A stretch of DNA of 51,377 nt from Candidatus Hydrogenedentota bacterium (GTDB lineage: Bacteria; Hydrogenedentota; Hydrogenedentia; Hydrogenedentales; CAITNO01), in assembly GCA_012730045.1 (NCBI GenBank), contig JAAYBR010000025.1, positions 1 through 51,377 of the forward strand, written 5' to 3'. Below are positions 1,687-9,915 of the stretch, in pieces. The notes under the pieces are model-generated. The model did not search any database. It was not told the origin of the DNA and saw only the letters and a list, made by a program, of their open reading frames with translations. Made by a program: the position numbers and the translations under genes. Numbering within the stretch: the first letter of the stretch is position 1; every line of letters begins with the position of its first letter.

Positions 1687-2226
1687 TCAGGCCTTCTTGG
1701 TGTACTTCTCGAGGATGGCGGGGACCTGGTCCGGGGTCATGCCGCCGTAGACCTTGTCCTCGACCACGACCACGGGGGCGAGGCCGCAGGTGCCGACACA
1801 GCGGGTGGCGTTGAGGGAGAACAGGCCGTCCTTGGTGGTCTCGCCGAAGTGGATGCCGAGCTCCTCCTGGAGGCGGTCGGCGACGCGCTCGGCGCCCTTG
1901 ACGTAGCACGCGGTGCCGAGGCAGACGCTGATCATGAACTTTCCGCGGGGCTCGAGGCGGAAGAAGTGGTAGAAGGTGGCGACGCCGGTAACCTTGGAGG
2001 CGGGCACCTGGAGGAGCTGGGCGACGGCGTCCATCTGCTCGCGGCCGAGGTGGCCGTAGTGCCCCTGGACGCGGTGCAGGACGCGGATCAGCTGGCTCTC
2101 GGGGTGCGCGTCGGCGGCGCACTCCTCGATGAAGGCGACGATCTCGGGGGTGAGGGCGGCCTTGGCGTTCTCGCGCACGGCCTCGCGGTTGTCGTTGCAG
2201 CCGCAGCAGCATTCATGGTGGCTCAT
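1687..2226 (-). CDS. hydC: HydC/NuoE-like [2Fe-2S] subunit of NADH-linked [FeFe] hydrogenase
   Basis: A 179-residue thioredoxin-fold ferredoxin subunit, homologous to the 24-kDa subunit of complex I (NuoE) and to HndA/HydC. It passes electrons between the NADH/FMN subunit and the catalytic subunit. The four cluster ligands are visible as C102-x4-C107 (VCLGTAC) and C143-x3-C147 (CVGTC), with the conserved GVATFYHFF stretch before them. An unusual Cys/His-rich start (MSHHECCCGC) may bind metal or be flexible. Its ATG overlaps the hydA stop codon by one base (TGATG), so it is translationally coupled as the last gene of hydB-hydA-hydC. Confidence 0.92.
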   Translation of the reverse strand: MSHHECCCGCNDNREAVRENAKAALTPEIVAFIEECAADAHPESQLIRVLHRVQGHYGHLGREQMDAVAQLLQVPASKVTGVATFYHFFRLEPRGKFMISVCLGTACYVKGAERVADRLQEELGIHFGETTKDGLFSLNATRCVGTCGLAPVVVVEDKVYGGMTPDQVPAILEKYTKKA

Positions 2227-3995
2227 CAGCGGATTCCTCTCGGCAGTCTGGGCTGGTAGTGGGTGTGGAGCAGGCGGTGGGCCGTCTCGCCCCCGGGCTC
2301 GCCCAGGAACTCGTCGTACAGCGCCTTGATGGCGGGGTTGTGGTTGGAGCTCCGCACATCCTTGTTCAGGTCGATGGTGTAGAGCGCCTTGGCCCGCTTG
2401 GCCAGGAGCTTCGGGTCGAGGATGGTGTAGCCGCGCGGCGGGTAGGGCTGGCCGCCGCCGCCGATGCAGCCGCCGGGGCAGGCCATGACCTCGATGATGT
2501 GGAAGACCTCCTCGCCCGAAACCACCTTGTCCAGGAGCTTCTTGGCGTTCTGCAGGCCGTTGGACACGCCCACGCGCAGCGTGAGGTCGTTGTTCACCTT
2601 CAGCTCGCGGACGCGCAGGCCCTCGACGGCGCGCACCTCCACGAACTCCATCTGCGCGGGCGGCTCGCCGTTGATGACCTCGGCCGCCATGCGCAGGGCG
2701 GCCTCGAGCACGCCGCCGGTGGTGCCGAAGATGTCGGCCGCGCCGGACGACGCGCCGAGGGGCGAGTCGAACTCGCCGTCCTCAAGCTCCGCCAGGTCAA
2801 TGCCGTAGCTCTTGATCATGAAGATCAGCTCGCGGGTCGTGAGCGAGGCGTCGGTCTCCTGCCCGCCGTCGGGGGTGGCAAACTCGGGGCGCTGGGCCTC
2901 GAACTTCTTGGCCGTGCAGGGCATGATCGCGACGACGAAGACGTCCTTCGGGTCTATGCCCTCCTTCTTCGCGTAGTAGGACTTGATGAGGGAGGACATC
3001 ATGGACATGGGGGAGCGGCAGGAGCTGGCGTTCGGGATCAGCTCGGGGTAGAAGCGCTCCATGAAGTTGACCCAGCCCGGGGAGCAGCTTGTCAGCAGGG
3101 GCAGCCGGTCGTTGTTCTTGAAGCGGTTCAGGAACTCCGTGGCCTCCTCGATGATCGTGAGGTCGGCGGTGAAGTTGGTGTCGAAGACGCGGTCGAAGCC
3201 GAGGCGGCGCAGGGCCGTCACCAGCTTGCCCGTGGCCGGGGTGCCCGGCGCCATGCCGAAGCCCTCGCCGACGGTCGCGCGGATGGCCGGGGCCGTCTGC
3301 ACCACGACATGCTTGGTGGGGTCGCCCAGGGCCTTCCAGACGCGGTCGGAGTCGCTGTGGCCGACAAAGGCCGCCGTCGGGCAGGCGTTGATGCACTGGC
3401 CGCACTGGATGCACACCGAGTCGTCCATCTTGTCGCCGTGGGCCGGGGCCACGTGGGTCGTGAAGCCGCGCCCCTGCTGGCTGAGGTTGTGGACGCCCTG
3501 GACCTCGGCGCACACGCGCACGCAGCGGCCGCAGAGGATGCACTTCTCGGCGTCGCGCACGATGGACACGCTGGACTTCTCGATGGGGAAGCGCTTGCGC
3601 TCGCCGTCGAAAAGCCGCTCGCGCACGCCCAGCGTGTAGGCCAGGTTCTGCAGCTCGCAGTTGCCGTCGCGCACGCAGGTGAGGCAGGCGCGGGGGTGGT
3701 TGTCCAGCAGCAGCTCCAGGATGTCGCGCCGGGCCTGCCGGATCGCGGGGCTGTTGGTCTGGATCTCCATGCCCTCCCACACCTGCACGCTGCACGAGGC
3801 CATGTAGAAGGGCACGCCCTTCACCTCGACCACGCACACGCGGCAGGAGCCCTGGATGCTGAGCTTGGGGTGGTGGCACAGGCGGGGAATCTTCACCCCG
3901 AGCTTCTGCTCGGCCGCCTGCATGATCGTCGTCCCCTTGGGCACCGTCACCGGGACGCCGTCTATCGTCAGGTTGATCATCTGCTGCTGGCTCAT
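2226..3995 (-). CDS. hydA: [FeFe] hydrogenase catalytic subunit HydA
   Basis: A 589-residue multi-cluster [FeFe] hydrogenase. In order: a plant-type [2Fe-2S] domain (C40, C51, C54, C68); the His-ligated [4Fe-4S] motif (H100, C104, C107, C113); two [4Fe-4S] ferredoxin motifs (C152/155/158/162 and C195/198/201/205); then the H-cluster domain with L1 TSCSPGW (302-308), L2 MPCTAKKFE (from 358) and L3 EVMACPGGCIGGGG (C506, C510). A C-terminal small-subunit-like tail follows. It reduces protons or oxidises H2. With HydB and HydC it should form the soluble trimeric enzyme that couples NADH and ferredoxin to H2. L1 has Ser where TSCCPGW has its second Cys. Maturation genes hydEFG are not in the window. 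Confidence 0.95.
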   Translation of the reverse strand: MSQQQMINLTIDGVPVTVPKGTTIMQAAEQKLGVKIPRLCHHPKLSIQGSCRVCVVEVKGVPFYMASCSVQVWEGMEIQTNSPAIRQARRDILELLLDNHPRACLTCVRDGNCELQNLAYTLGVRERLFDGERKRFPIEKSSVSIVRDAEKCILCGRCVRVCAEVQGVHNLSQQGRGFTTHVAPAHGDKMDDSVCIQCGQCINACPTAAFVGHSDSDRVWKALGDPTKHVVVQTAPAIRATVGEGFGMAPGTPATGKLVTALRRLGFDRVFDTNFTADLTIIEEATEFLNRFKNNDRLPLLTSCSPGWVNFMERFYPELIPNASSCRSPMSMMSSLIKSYYAKKEGIDPKDVFVVAIMPCTAKKFEAQRPEFATPDGGQETDASLTTRELIFMIKSYGIDLAELEDGEFDSPLGASSGAADIFGTTGGVLEAALRMAAEVINGEPPAQMEFVEVRAVEGLRVRELKVNNDLTLRVGVSNGLQNAKKLLDKVVSGEEVFHIIEVMACPGGCIGGGGQPYPPRGYTILDPKLLAKRAKALYTIDLNKDVRSSNHNPAIKALYDEFLGEPGGETAHRLLHTHYQPRLPRGIR

Positions 3996-4029
3996 ACAGT
4001 CACCTTATGGGTTGTCCGCGTTGTTGGGG

Positions 4030-6210
4030 TCAGGCCCGCGCCACCGCGTCGAAGCGGCACACCTCGAAGCACCGCCCGCACTTGATGCAGGCGTCCTGCC
4101 CGATCACGTGCGGCTCCTTGCGCGCGCCGCTGATGCACCCGGCGGGGCAGTTTCGGGCGCACATCGTGCAGCCCACGCACTTCTCCGCGTTGATCTCGTA
4201 GCGCACCAGCGCCTTGCACTTGCGCGCGGCGCAGGTGCGGTCGTTCACATGCGCGTCGTACTCGTGGCGGAAGTGGCGCAGCGTGCTGAGCACGGGGTTC
4301 GGCGCGGCGCGCCCCAGCCCGCACAGCGACGTGCTGCGCACCAGGTTCGCCAGGCGCTCCAGCTTCTCCACGTCCTCCTGCGCCGCCTTGCCCTGCGTGA
4401 TCTTCTCCAGAATCTCCAGCATGCGCTTCGTGCCCTCGCGGCACGGCGTGCACTTGCCGCACGACTCGTCCTGGCAGAACGTGATGAAGAACTTCGCCAC
4501 GTCCACCATGCAGTCGTCCTCGTCGAGGACGATCATGCCGCCGCTGCCCATGATGGAGCCCATCTTGCCCAGCGTGTCGAAGTCAATCGGCGTGTCCAGG
4601 TACTCCTCGGGGATGATGCCCCCCGCCGGGCCGCCCGTCTGCACGCCCTTGAGCTTCTTGCCGTTGGGCACGCCGCCGCCGATGTCAAACACCACCTCGC
4701 GCAGCGTGGTGCCCATGGGCACCTCCACCAGGCCCGTGTGGCGCACCTTGCCCGCCAGGGCGAACACCTTGGTGCCGCCGCTCTTCTCGGAGCCGACGCG
4801 GCGGAACCACTCGCCGCCGTACACGAGGATGGCCGGCACGTTCGCGAAGGTCTCGACGTTGTTAATGACTGTCGGCTGGCCCCAGAGCCCGCTCTCGGCG
4901 GGGAACGGCGGGCGGATGCGGGGCTGGCCGCGCTCGCCCTCGATGGAGTGGATGAGCGCCGTCTCCTCGCCGCACACGAACGCGCCCGCGCCCAGCCGGA
5001 TCTCCAGATCCAGGCTGAAGCCCGAGCCCAGGATGTTCTTGCCCAGCAGCCCGTGCTTCCGGCACTCCGCCAGCGCGTGCTCAATGCGCTTGATCGCCAG
5101 CGGGTACTCGGCCCGCACATAGAAGAAGCCGCGCGTCGCGCCGACCGCGTAGCCGCCGAGGATCATGCCCTCGATCACGCTGTACGGGTCCGACTCCAGC
5201 ATGCTGCGGTCCATGAACGCGCCCGGGTCGCCCTCGTCCGCGTTGCAGATGATGTAGCACGTGTTCTTCACATGCTGCCGCGTCAGCTTCCACTTCTGGC
5301 CCGTCGGGAACCCGCCGCCCCCGCGGCCGCGCAGCTGCGACAGCAGCACCTCGTTGATCACCCACTCCGGGTCCTCCTTGGCCAGCGCCGTCGCCAGCGC
5401 CTGGAACCCGCTGTAGTGCATGTACTCGTCAAGGCTCTCCGGGTCCACCACGCCCGCGTTCCGCAGGGCGATCCGGTTCTGCCGGTTGAAGAACGACACG
5501 TCGCCGTACAGGTCAAAGAAGCGCTGGCTGATCGGCTTCGCGTCGCTCAGGAGCTCCGCCACGGGCTCGCCGCCCGCCAGGTGCCCCTTCACGATCCGCG
5601 CCACGTCGTCCGCCGAACGCACGTTGTAGATCGTCTCGCCGGGGCGCACCATCACGCTGGTCACGCCCTCCGGCCGCGGCGTCGAGCAGAAGCCCAGGCA
5701 GCCCACCGGGATGACCCGCACCTTGTCCGTGCCGAGGCCCGCATCCTCCAGCGCCCGCAGGAACGCCTTTTCCGTGCTGCCGCCCACGATGGCGCCGCAA
5801 TGCTTGTCGTCGCACACCAGCACCTCGTAGTCCGCGCGGACCTCCGCCTTCTCCAGCAGCCGGTCCTCCAGCGGATTCCCGCCCTGCACGTGCTGCGTGA
5901 AAATCGTGTGCGCCGTGTCGCGGTCCACCTGCTGGTAGATCACCGGCATCTGGCCCGGCACGAACACCGTCACGATGGGCTCGCGGCTGCACCGGCCCGT
6001 GCAGCCCGTCTTGCGCAGAAGGATGTCCGTGCGGCCGCTCGTGAGGATGCTCCGCTCGAACTCCTGCCACACCTCCCCCGCCCCCGCCGCGTTCTCGCAC
6101 GTGGCCGAGCCGACTTGGATGCGGACCGCCTTGGCCGGCACGGCTTTCGCAAGCCGCTTCTCCGCTTTTGCGTGCAGTTCCTGATAGGCTTTCGTGACTT
6201 TTTCTTTCAT
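4030..6210 (-). CDS. hydB: HydB/NuoF-like NADH- and FMN-binding subunit of [FeFe] hydrogenase
   Basis: About 726 residues from ATG 6210 (a GTG at 6240 would add ten). It has two thioredoxin-like [2Fe-2S] segments at the N-terminus: C38/C70/C74, and C133-x4-C138 with C171-x3-C175. Next comes the NuoF core with the glycine-rich NADH/FMN loop GRGGGGFPTGQKW (295-307), an SLBB-type region, the [4Fe-4S] motif SCGKCTPC (C584, C587, C590, with C630), and a C-terminal 2x[4Fe-4S] ferredoxin domain (C678/681/684/688 and C708/711/714/718). It oxidises or reduces NAD(H) and is the likely bifurcation site. It is the first gene of the operon, 34 nt before hydA. Neither start has a convincing Shine-Dalgarno sequence. 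Confidence 0.93.
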   Translation of the reverse strand: MKEKVTKAYQELHAKAEKRLAKAVPAKAVRIQVGSATCENAAGAGEVWQEFERSILTSGRTDILLRKTGCTGRCSREPIVTVFVPGQMPVIYQQVDRDTAHTIFTQHVQGGNPLEDRLLEKAEVRADYEVLVCDDKHCGAIVGGSTEKAFLRALEDAGLGTDKVRVIPVGCLGFCSTPRPEGVTSVMVRPGETIYNVRSADDVARIVKGHLAGGEPVAELLSDAKPISQRFFDLYGDVSFFNRQNRIALRNAGVVDPESLDEYMHYSGFQALATALAKEDPEWVINEVLLSQLRGRGGGGFPTGQKWKLTRQHVKNTCYIICNADEGDPGAFMDRSMLESDPYSVIEGMILGGYAVGATRGFFYVRAEYPLAIKRIEHALAECRKHGLLGKNILGSGFSLDLEIRLGAGAFVCGEETALIHSIEGERGQPRIRPPFPAESGLWGQPTVINNVETFANVPAILVYGGEWFRRVGSEKSGGTKVFALAGKVRHTGLVEVPMGTTLREVVFDIGGGVPNGKKLKGVQTGGPAGGIIPEEYLDTPIDFDTLGKMGSIMGSGGMIVLDEDDCMVDVAKFFITFCQDESCGKCTPCREGTKRMLEILEKITQGKAAQEDVEKLERLANLVRSTSLCGLGRAAPNPVLSTLRHFRHEYDAHVNDRTCAARKCKALVRYEINAEKCVGCTMCARNCPAGCISGARKEPHVIGQDACIKCGRCFEVCRFDAVARA

Positions 6211-6240
6211 GGAGAACCCCGATGTGTTTGCCCGGTCCAC

Positions 6241-6537: not shown

Positions 6538-7602
6538 GTGAGTGATCCGGAACGGGCAGATCGGGCCATCCCCCCCCGCAGGGCACCCCTTGCCCGCCGT
6601 CCCGCCGCCCCGATCCTCCACACCCTGCTGGAGGCCCACCGCATCTCCCACAAGGTCCGTATCCTGTGCTACGGGTGCGGCCAGGGCGCGGACGTGCAGT
6701 GGTTCCTGCTGCGCCGGTTCAAAGTGCATGGCTACGACCCCCACCCGCCTTTTGGCTACAGCGACAAGCCGGAGGGCCACTACGAGTTTGTGTTCTTTAA
6801 TTATCTGATGACCCGGCTGAAGACGCCGGAGGCGCGGCGGCGGACCCTGGCCGAGGCTTTCCAGCATGTGAAGCCCGGGGGGGCGCTGGTGGTCACCAGC
6901 CGGATACTGGCGCAGGTGTGGGCCGCCGGGGGCGATGAGGGGGTCCGGAGTCATGCCCGGGATCTTCTGGCGGACTGCGACACGGCGGAGATGGAGGTGT
7001 TTCCCCCCGATGCGGGCGACCAGTCCATTGCGGTGCTGGTGCGGCGCAGCGGGGTCTACCGTCCCGCTTCGCCGTGGGTCTGGGTGGACGCCCGGGAGGA
7101 TTTCGAGGCCCTCTGCCCCCTGTTGGAGCGGGAGCGGATCATGGGCCTGGATGTCGAGACCACGCTGGAGGAGCCGCGCACCCTGTGCACGGTGCAGATT
7201 GCGGTGCCGGGGCGCACCTATGTTCTGGACGCCTTGAAACTGGCGCCGCTGGACCCGCTGCGCCCGGTCATGGAAAACCCGGACGTCCTCAAGATCATCC
7301 ACAACGCCGACTTCGAGCGGGAAATGCTCGCCAGACACGCCATCAAACTCGACGGGGTCTATGACACCCTTGCGGCCTCCCGCAAGAAGCACCGCAAGGG
7401 CGGCGTCTCGGGGCACAAACTGGGCGACGTCTGCGAGCGGGAGCTGGGCATCTATCTGGACAAGGCCCTGCAGCTCTCCGACTGGACGGTTCGCCCGCTC
7501 AGCCCGGATCAGCTAAACTATGCGGCGGTGGACGCCGAGGTCATGCTCCTCCTCCACCGCGTCTTTGAACCGCCGCTGCCGCAGAACCTGGAACTGTTCT
7601 GA
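6538..7602 (+). CDS. Methyltransferase-like domain fused to a DEDDy 3'-5' exonuclease
   Basis: 354 residues, GTG start preceded by AAAGGA. Residues about 35-170 look like a class I SAM methyltransferase: motif I ILCYGCGQGADVQWF (42-56), GYDPH after beta 2 (65-69), VFFNYL (85-90) and VKPGGALVVTSR (111-122). Residues about 178-350 are an RNase D/WRN-type exonuclease: Exo I GLDVETT (D205, E207), Exo II IIHNADFERE (253-262) and Exo III LNYAAVDAEV (Y328, D332), so the DEDDy class. In Exo II, Glu260 stands where many family members have Asp. The YGCGxGxDV..GYDP pattern resembles putative methyltransferases associated with DNA phosphorothioation (inference from memory). It is the first gene of a four-gene operon; the next gene starts 12 nt later. 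Confidence 0.8.
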   Translation: MSDPERADRAIPPRRAPLARRPAAPILHTLLEAHRISHKVRILCYGCGQGADVQWFLLRRFKVHGYDPHPPFGYSDKPEGHYEFVFFNYLMTRLKTPEARRRTLAEAFQHVKPGGALVVTSRILAQVWAAGGDEGVRSHARDLLADCDTAEMEVFPPDAGDQSIAVLVRRSGVYRPASPWVWVDAREDFEALCPLLERERIMGLDVETTLEEPRTLCTVQIAVPGRTYVLDALKLAPLDPLRPVMENPDVLKIIHNADFEREMLARHAIKLDGVYDTLAASRKKHRKGGVSGHKLGDVCERELGIYLDKALQLSDWTVRPLSPDQLNYAAVDAEVMLLLHRVFEPPLPQNLELF

Positions 7603-7614
7603 GGGAGGCACATC

Positions 7615-9915
7615 ATGCGACGCAAAGAACGACTGCCGGAGGCCGTGCTGTTGCTGGCCGCGCTGCTCCTCGCGGCGGCGGTCCCCGCCCAGATTCCCGG
7701 ACTGCCCTCCCTCCCGGAGACGGCCGGCGCCGAAACGGCGCAGGAAGCCCCGCCGGAGGTTCTGGTGGAGACCCTCCAGACGCAGGCAACCGAGGCGGAG
7801 CAGCGGCTTGCCGAGGCGCTTTCCCTGGCCGAAAACCCGGAGGCCCTGCCCCCCGGCATTTCCGCCGAGCTGGCGGAGGCCCGGGTTCAGGCGGCGCGCA
7901 ACGCCCTTAAAGCCCTTCAGGCCCGCCTCCAGCAGGTCCGCGACCTGGAAACGGAGCGCGCGGCGGCCGCGGCGGCCCGCGAAAGCCTGGAATCCTTTGT
8001 CAAGCTCGACGAGCCCCCGCCCTATGCCATGGCTTTCCTGGACACCCTGCGCGGGCAGGTGGACGCGAAACAGAGCGAGATAGACGCCGAGCGCCTCGGG
8101 CGCGACGTGGTCCGGGGCATGGCGGAGCGGGAGACGGCCAACCTGGAACGGCTCAAGATGCTGGCCAACCAGGCGGCCGAGGCCGCCAAAGCCGCCGCCT
8201 CCGAGGAGGACAAGGCCCGCACGCTGTTCGCCCTGGACACGGCCCGCCGCAGCCAGCGCGCGGCGGAAACGGGTGTGGAGGCCCTCCGCGCCGCCGTTGC
8301 CGTGGCCGACCAGCGGCTGGCGCGGCTGGACACGGAACTGGAACTGGGCCGGCGCCGCGCCGCAGCCGCGGCCGCGCAGACCCTGTTCACCCAAAAGGAG
8401 CTGGAGGAAATTGAGCAGGCCGCCAAACAGGCGCGGGCCGCCCTGGAGGAGGAGCTTGCCGGGGCGCAGCGGGAGCTGGACCGGCGGACCGCCCGGGACG
8501 GCGAGCTGGCCCGGCGCGCCGGGCAGGAAGGCCCCGCGGACCCGGCCCTCGCCGCCCAGCGGGAGACCGCCCGCGTCCGGGTGGAAGCCGCCCAGGGCCT
8601 GGTCAATTCCCTGGGCAGCATGCTGGAGATGGAGGCCGACACCCTCGAGGTGTGGCGTCTGCGCTTTGAGGTGGCCCACCCCGGCGCGGGGGGCGAGCGC
8701 CGCCCGGTGACGGAACTGGAACGGGAGATGGACGCCTACCGCTCCCGGTATGACGGCATCCAGGCCATTTTTGAGCAGCGGCTCAATGCGGTCCGGGCCC
8801 AGACCCTTTCCCTCGACAAGGAGGTCCAGGCGCTGCCGGAGGAGGCGCGCGCAGAGTTTCGCCTCCGGCGGGAGGCCCTGGCCGAGCGAGAGACGGGCCT
8901 GCTCCGGCTGGCGGCGCGGGGGGAGGCCCTCTCCCGCCTGATCCGGTCGGGGCGGCTGGACATTCGGGGCCGGCTTGAGGCCCTCTCCGGACTCGACCGG
9001 GCGGCCCAGGGCGTTTCGGACCTTTGGCGCAACACCCTCAACTTCTTCGACCGGGAACTGTTCACCATCGGCGACGAGTCCATCACGCCCCGCAAGCTGA
9101 TCATCGCCGTGGTCATTCTGGTGTTCGGGCTCCTGTTCACCCGGCTGTTCCTGAACCGGATCACCGGATTCGCCATCACCCGCCTCAAGCTGCGCCCGGG
9201 CGGCCGCTACGTGGTGGAGACCATCACCCGGTACCTGCTCCTCATCATCGTCTTCTACGCCGTTCTCAAGTACCTCAACATCTCCCTGACCGTCTTAACC
9301 TTCATCGGCGGCGCGGCGGCCATCGGCGTCGGTTTCGGCGCCCAGACCCTCGTGAGCAACTTCCTGAGCAGCCTCATCCTCATGGGTGAGCAGCCCATCC
9401 GCGTCGGCGACATCGTCGAGGTCGGCGGGCTCACGGGCCGCATCGTCCACATGGGCGCGCGCGCCTGCATGGTCCGCACCTTCTCCGGCGTCGAGGTCCT
9501 CGTGCCCAACAGCAAGTTCCTCGAGGACAACGTGGTCAACTGGACCCTTTCGGACCAGAAGATGCGCTTCGACGTGACGGTCGGCGTCGCCTTCGGCTCC
9601 GACATTCGCCGGGTCAAGGACATCCTGGAGGATATCGCGGGCCGCCACGGGCAGATCCTCAAGGATCCCGAGCCGGTCGTGGTGTTCCAGGATTTCGGCG
9701 ACAACGCCCTGGTCTTCGCCGTCTACTTCTGGCTCGACCTGGAGAAGAGCGACTCCCGCGTGGTCCGCAGCGACATCCGCTTCATGGTCGAGCGCGCCTT
9801 CGCCAAGGAAGACATCGCCATCGCCTTCCCGCAGCGGGATGTGCACATGAACATGGCCGGACCCGTCGAGGTCCGCCTCGCCCGGGAGCAGGACGCCGGG
9901 CCCGCCAAAGACTGA
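7615..9915 (+). CDS. MscS-family mechanosensitive channel with long periplasmic coiled coil
   Basis: 766 residues, RBS GAGGGAGG. A signal peptide (about 1-25, ending AAAVPAQ) is followed by about 450 residues of Ala/Glu/Arg-rich heptad-like sequence, almost certainly a periplasmic coiled coil as in MscK/YbdG-type relatives. Membrane segments lie at about 495-513 and 540-556. The pore-lining helix with GGAAAIGVGFGAQTLVSNF (about 565-583) and the following GEQPIRVGDIVEVGGLTGRI are the hallmark of MscS. The C-terminal 170 residues form the cytoplasmic beta/alphabeta cage (VRTFSGVEVLVPNSKFL). It should gate open on membrane tension during hypo-osmotic shock. It is second in the operon. Confidence 0.92.
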   Translation: MRRKERLPEAVLLLAALLLAAAVPAQIPGLPSLPETAGAETAQEAPPEVLVETLQTQATEAEQRLAEALSLAENPEALPPGISAELAEARVQAARNALKALQARLQQVRDLETERAAAAAARESLESFVKLDEPPPYAMAFLDTLRGQVDAKQSEIDAERLGRDVVRGMAERETANLERLKMLANQAAEAAKAAASEEDKARTLFALDTARRSQRAAETGVEALRAAVAVADQRLARLDTELELGRRRAAAAAAQTLFTQKELEEIEQAAKQARAALEEELAGAQRELDRRTARDGELARRAGQEGPADPALAAQRETARVRVEAAQGLVNSLGSMLEMEADTLEVWRLRFEVAHPGAGGERRPVTELEREMDAYRSRYDGIQAIFEQRLNAVRAQTLSLDKEVQALPEEARAEFRLRREALAERETGLLRLAARGEALSRLIRSGRLDIRGRLEALSGLDRAAQGVSDLWRNTLNFFDRELFTIGDESITPRKLIIAVVILVFGLLFTRLFLNRITGFAITRLKLRPGGRYVVETITRYLLLIIVFYAVLKYLNISLTVLTFIGGAAAIGVGFGAQTLVSNFLSSLILMGEQPIRVGDIVEVGGLTGRIVHMGARACMVRTFSGVEVLVPNSKFLEDNVVNWTLSDQKMRFDVTVGVAFGSDIRRVKDILEDIAGRHGQILKDPEPVVVFQDFGDNALVFAVYFWLDLEKSDSRVVRSDIRFMVERAFAKEDIAIAFPQRDVHMNMAGPVEVRLAREQDAGPAKD

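Follow-up and report, generated by a model that had tools for sequence, protein, structure and literature searches.

A class I methyltransferase-like domain fused to a DEDDy-fold 3'-5' exonuclease in Hydrogenedentota

The 3'-5' exonucleases of family PF01612, including RNase D, WRN, RRP6, Nibbler, NrnC and the proofreading domain of Pol I, have a common fold and share the residues of the Exo I and Exo III motifs. In animals, Nibbler trims and HEN1 methylates, as two separate proteins. To our knowledge, no role is known for the Dnd-associated methyltransferase family TIGR04096. Here, we describe a gene in which a class I S-adenosylmethionine (SAM)-methyltransferase-like domain is followed, in one chain, by a PF01612 exonuclease domain. 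It lies in a 51,377-nt stretch of a Candidatus Hydrogenedentota contig, termed the window, and its product is termed the window protein (Table 1). The fusion is a new, lineage-specific combination, and its component domains are already known. It differs from the known PF01612 exonucleases in having Glu for Asp in Exo II, in lacking an HRDC domain and in carrying both the N-terminal domain and an LxLF tail.

The fusion is confirmed as real: the frame is not a chance one because it is conserved over 25 genomes and, in comparison with the same-genus gene, dN/dS (the ratio of nonsynonymous to synonymous substitution rates) is 0.24 for the methyltransferase part and 0.15 for the exonuclease part. 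Both halves are thus under purifying selection. Each half is also supported by profile and predicted structure, in agreement with the original prediction of a single-chain fusion. In the exonuclease tree, the 25 fusion rows stand on one side of a branch (96/95). Searches covering 386 genomes, two other phyla (39 and 45 genomes), plasmids and phages did not find the fusion outside Hydrogenedentota, nor was it found outside the phylum among the best 80 of 167 loci from viral contigs. The genome_contigs search gave one locus with the fusion, from a Hydrogenedentota organism (83% identical). No paper on a DEDDy-methyltransferase fusion was found in literature searches covering mainly open-access papers.

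The exonuclease assignment is firm at the family level. The window protein scores 96.2 bits for PF01612 against a cut-off of 23.6, and WRN exonuclease is the top solved-structure match of the predicted exonuclease half (2.5 A over 176 residues). Motif counts refer to 24 full-length homologues, the gene of the 25th genome (G004) being split over two contigs. Exo I D-x-E and Exo III Y-x3-D are present in all 24, as expected for PF01612. The complete Exo I/II/III set that had been predicted was only partly recovered: Exo I (D205, E207) and Exo III (Y328, D332) are canonical, but Exo II has E260 instead of Asp, as do all the homologues. The protein was therefore assigned to the PF01612 profile family and not to the canonical DEDDy signature. 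The Exo II glutamate also occurs in near relatives (L078, L079, L080, L083) and in several viral polymerase-size frames (L086, L148, L159, L162); aspartate occupies the position in most viral rows and in RNase D-type rows. In G004, the Exo I Asp is Ala on one contig and Asp in an overlapping, slightly different copy on the second.

The chain ends shortly after the exonuclease domain and therefore has no HRDC domain. Identity with RNase D (TIGR01388) was rejected, the window protein scoring 60.1 bits against an equivalog cut-off of 298.95; a separate gene of the window's genome encodes an RNase D-like protein. An LxLF-type motif lies no more than four residues from the C-terminus in all 24 homologues, its first Leu being Gly or Met in four. 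In beta-clamp-binding tails, the consensus places Gln four residues ahead of the final Phe. This column is Asn, Thr, Ile or Pro in all 24, and the tail was rejected as a clamp-binding motif; DinB of the same genome carries QTSLF, unlike the fusion.

At comparable scores, hits outside the phylum were to the exonuclease half only: frames of some 180 to 246 residues in G131, G460, G461 and G386, the C-terminal end of a frame of 417 residues in G186 and G409, and a viral contig (L083). The exonuclease sequences closest to the fusion are stand-alone proteins from other phyla and from a viral contig (L078, L202, L203, L204, L083). They have no methyltransferase domain, and the two inspected at Exo II (L078, L083) carry the glutamate as well. 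In another phylum, one of these genes (L203:5165-7133) is located near genes for PC4, a single-stranded DNA-binding family, a macro-domain protein and a PCC-domain protein, possibly a DNA-related cluster.

Since the match list of whole-chain structure searches was filled by the exonuclease half, the N-terminal domain was predicted and searched separately. Modelled alone, it adopts a class I methyltransferase fold (pLDDT, the predicted local distance difference test score, 91.3; best match over 137 residues at 2.6 A), seemingly without the usual third strand, going by the listed strands of the prediction. Its Methyltransf_23 match is above the family cut-off, and the N-terminal domains of all 21 members scanned match the same profile at E 0.01 or better. 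Together with the fold, the window protein has motif I GxGxG and the acidic residue after strand 2; thus, the predicted class I signature (GCGQG, GYD) holds.

This signature is not universal in the family. The three full-length homologues lacking SAM motif I also lack D67, and the motif is missing in four genomes in all (G003, G004, G006, G011), each of which retains the nuclease domain. At E values as high as 1, Pfam gives no methyltransferase hit for the N-terminal domains of G003, G006 and G011 or for the fragmentary one of G004, and in the exonuclease tree a branch (94/85) separates these four rows from the rest. With a threshold of E 1e-9, which misses the fusion-bearing G003, the N-terminal domain was detected in 25 of 386 genomes, with G258 as the sole one outside the phylum.

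The proposed link of the N-terminal pattern to DNA-phosphorothioation methyltransferases is supported. TIGR04096 matches the window protein at E 4e-8, and matches all 21 N-terminal domains scanned (best 5.5e-15); however, the window match covers model positions 9-111 of 478 and, at 32.5 bits, falls short of the cut-off of 150. The fusion thus resembles the methyltransferase part of this family over the first 110 or so positions, below cut-off and with no dnd gene among the neighbour matches listed. Among the 68 phylum genomes, 22 have a TIGR04096 match at 1e-5, 21 through the fusion and one (G060) through a member above cut-off.

Relatives of this domain are joined to other phosphoesterases. 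Proteins with an EEP nuclease-family domain and the same methyltransferase type are encoded on Streptomyces plasmids (L193:5119-6462, L213:5001-6356) and in a viral contig (L194:1-1296); their nuclease fold is different and their domain order is the reverse of that in the fusion. A Streptomyces protein of 447 residues is 33% identical to the window protein over 127 residues, and the viral-contig protein (432 residues) 37% over 86 residues. Both Streptomyces genes adjoin a gene annotated as nucleoside triphosphate pyrophosphohydrolase, of which the one scanned is MazG-like. In G258 (L236:1408-2262), the same methyltransferase type is found in a 285-residue frame whose second half, a HIT domain, matches a HIT protein of solved structure (2.9e-13). 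Read by eye, the HIT triad has Ser in place of its middle His. The same genome has a 483-residue frame that resembles TIGR04096 by eye. This repeated pairing favours a nucleic-acid or nucleotide substrate for the methyltransferase type. The predicted nucleic-acid role of the fusion is strengthened because the relatives of its N-terminal domain are joined to EEP and HIT domains.

The explanation that we prefer, with moderate confidence, is that the fusion is a chromosomal nucleic-acid maintenance exonuclease with a substrate-recognising, usually SAM-binding N-terminal domain. Its core activity would be that of a two-metal 3'-5' exonuclease with the DEDDy fold, the second Asp being replaced by Glu. 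The N-terminal domain would be an accessory module recognising the nucleic-acid substrate or its end; in most lineages it would bind SAM and either methylate the substrate or gate the nuclease. The exonuclease is read as the core activity because both domains persist in a clade, 4 of the 25 genomes, that has lost the SAM motif. This suggests that the role of the N-terminal domain, such as substrate recognition, may outlive SAM binding, and retention of the SAM residues in most members says that the ligand probably matters in most lineages. From the sequences, we infer an active nuclease, contact between the N-terminal domain and nucleic acid, and a housekeeping role in repair or end processing, not in defence. 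Several lines of evidence favour maintenance: the exonuclease motifs in all 24 homologues, the lack of any gene kept beside the fusion across families, and the EEP and HIT joins. The surroundings of the stand-alone gene of L203 are also counted here.

Other observations weigh against this explanation. The fusion is absent from 43 of the 68 phylum genomes, some of them incomplete, which is odd for a housekeeping enzyme. The Exo II Asp is replaced throughout, and exonuclease activity is therefore not assured. In a more distant pair (f1g2), dN/dS of the exonuclease (0.37) is not below that of the methyltransferase part (0.30). Finally, retention of SAM-binding residues in 21 of 24 homologues is also compatible with a true methyltransferase.

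This last point leads to the strongest alternative, a bifunctional trim-and-methylate enzyme in which the nuclease would resect a 3' end and the methyltransferase would methylate the same end or a nearby base, thereby marking or protecting it, in the manner of the animal Nibbler-HEN1 pair. The intact SAM-binding residues (20 to 21 of 24), the purifying selection on both parts, the Nibbler exonuclease domains among the top structure matches (Z 22.0 and 21.7) and the other nuclease-methyltransferase joins within the same subfamily are all consistent with such an enzyme. However, the clade without SAM motifs retains the fusion, and we regard this alternative as tentative and less probable than a maintenance exonuclease. 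Its wider form, a single-polypeptide trim-and-mark enzyme that is one of several separate EEP, HIT and DEDDy pairings of a SAM-enzyme subfamily that is known otherwise for its link to phosphorothioation, seems rather unlikely.

More doubtful still is a role like that of NrnC or diDNase, in which the protein would break down very short oligonucleotides and its N-terminal domain would serve as a lid or in oligomerisation. By sequence, a reconstructed diDNase ancestor is the solved structure that matches best (2.3e-17), and NrnC and diDNase are among the fold matches (Z 20 to 21), but equal or higher scores are reached by WRN, Pol I, Nibbler and RNase D. The diDNase signature consists of Exo II HHAxFD(L/I)xxF and a C-terminal Tyr (PMC11706625); the window protein has HNADFEREML and ends in LELF.

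The genes around the fusion bear on a role in defence. Neighbours were scanned as 87 proteins, up to two genes on each side, called by a simple gene finder with calls under 60 aa dropped; locus L048 was omitted because its gene calls looked wrong. The original prediction placed the fusion at the head of an operon with an MscS channel gene, which indeed follows at 16 bp in the window and at 25 bp in the same-genus genome. This partnership did not extend further than 3 of 25 genomes: these two and one of another genus in the family. The third case (f1g2), whose contig ends early, was assigned by whole-frame similarity, and blast of the window channel domain against all locus frames gave the window and the same-genus genome only; two genomes (G012, G050) with under 300 bases downstream are uninformative. 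Of the fusion loci, those of the window and the same-genus genome alone have a same-strand gene less than 50 bases downstream. In six loci (L037, L038, L039, L042, L043, L045; five of family f11, one of f10), a MazG nucleotide pyrophosphohydrolase gene follows. The 87 proteins matched 36 PADLOC families; the 25 listed are mainly kinase-type and radical-SAM families and include no Dnd or Ssp family, so that a dnd/ssp neighbourhood is not supported, and the PglW and PD-T4-6 matches are consistent with generic kinases. Thus, the predicted SAM fold is present in the N-terminal half, but the homologues usually stand by themselves.

A link to bacteriophage exclusion (BREX) systems was also considered. 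The last 170 or so positions of the PADLOC BrxHI model PDLC02501 match all 24 fusion exonuclease domains (best 3.8e-49), the window protein at 6e-41 over positions 750-918 of 925, with 138 bits for the fusion against 62 for the genome's own RNase D-like protein. This match says little on BREX because the available text of a BREX survey gives BrxHI an Lhr-type C-terminus and has no occurrence of the word exonuclease (PMC12839542). The fusion is not taken as a BREX exonuclease since it has no helicase part and no BREX core gene was seen among the neighbour matches listed, apart from the kinase-type PglW matches. A defence effector nuclease acting together with either the MscS channel or a system of DNA modification, to which the close channel gene, the BrxHI match and the TIGR04096 likeness could point, is therefore very improbable: the fusion is mostly alone and limited to one clade, and MscS is limited to the window's genus and one neighbouring genus. 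Upstream of the fusion, the window has divergently transcribed genes (2226-6240, reverse strand) that encode the large subunit of an iron-only hydrogenase and a NuoF-like subunit.

Table 1. Positions of the fusion gene, its domains and motifs, and the downstream gene in the window
Feature	Position	Strand	Basis
Methyltransferase-exonuclease fusion gene	6538..7602	+	Open frame exactly over these positions, GTG start, 354 aa; conserved in 25/68 phylum genomes
N-terminal class I SAM-methyltransferase-like domain, residues 22-172	6601..7053	+	Methyltransf_23 8.6e-9; predicted fold Z 15.4
SAM motif I, GCGQG, residues 46-50	6673..6687	+	Complete in 20/24 homologues, FCGKG in 1, lost in 3
GYD, end of strand 2, residues 65-67, acidic D67	6730..6738	+	D in 21/24
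PGG turn, residues 113-115	6874..6882	+	Invariant 24/24
C-terminal DEDDy-type 3'-5' exonuclease domain, residues 178-347	7069..7578	+	PF01612 2.6e-27; Z 24.0 to WRN exonuclease
Exo I, D205-V-E207	7150..7158	+	D205, E207 invariant 24/24
Exo II, HNADFE, residues 255-260, Glu replacing usual Asp	7300..7317	+	E260 in 24/24; aligns with Asp of solved relatives
Exo III, Y328 to D332	7519..7533	+	Y328, D332 invariant 24/24
Proline-rich C-terminal tail ending LELF	7570..7599	+	Final L-F pair of LxLF invariant 24/24
MscS-type channel gene	7615..9915	+	MS_channel profiles; 16 bp downstream of fusion; neighbour, not conserved partner

Relatives of the TIGR04096 domain are thus joined to three phosphoesterase domains, one of these joins being kept in a phylum-wide clade, which suggests that the substrate is a nucleic-acid end or a nucleotide. 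The fusion is a small protein suited to testing the substrate of this methyltransferase subfamily, and the clade that has the fusion without the SAM motifs provides a ready-made comparison by which the two activities could be told apart.
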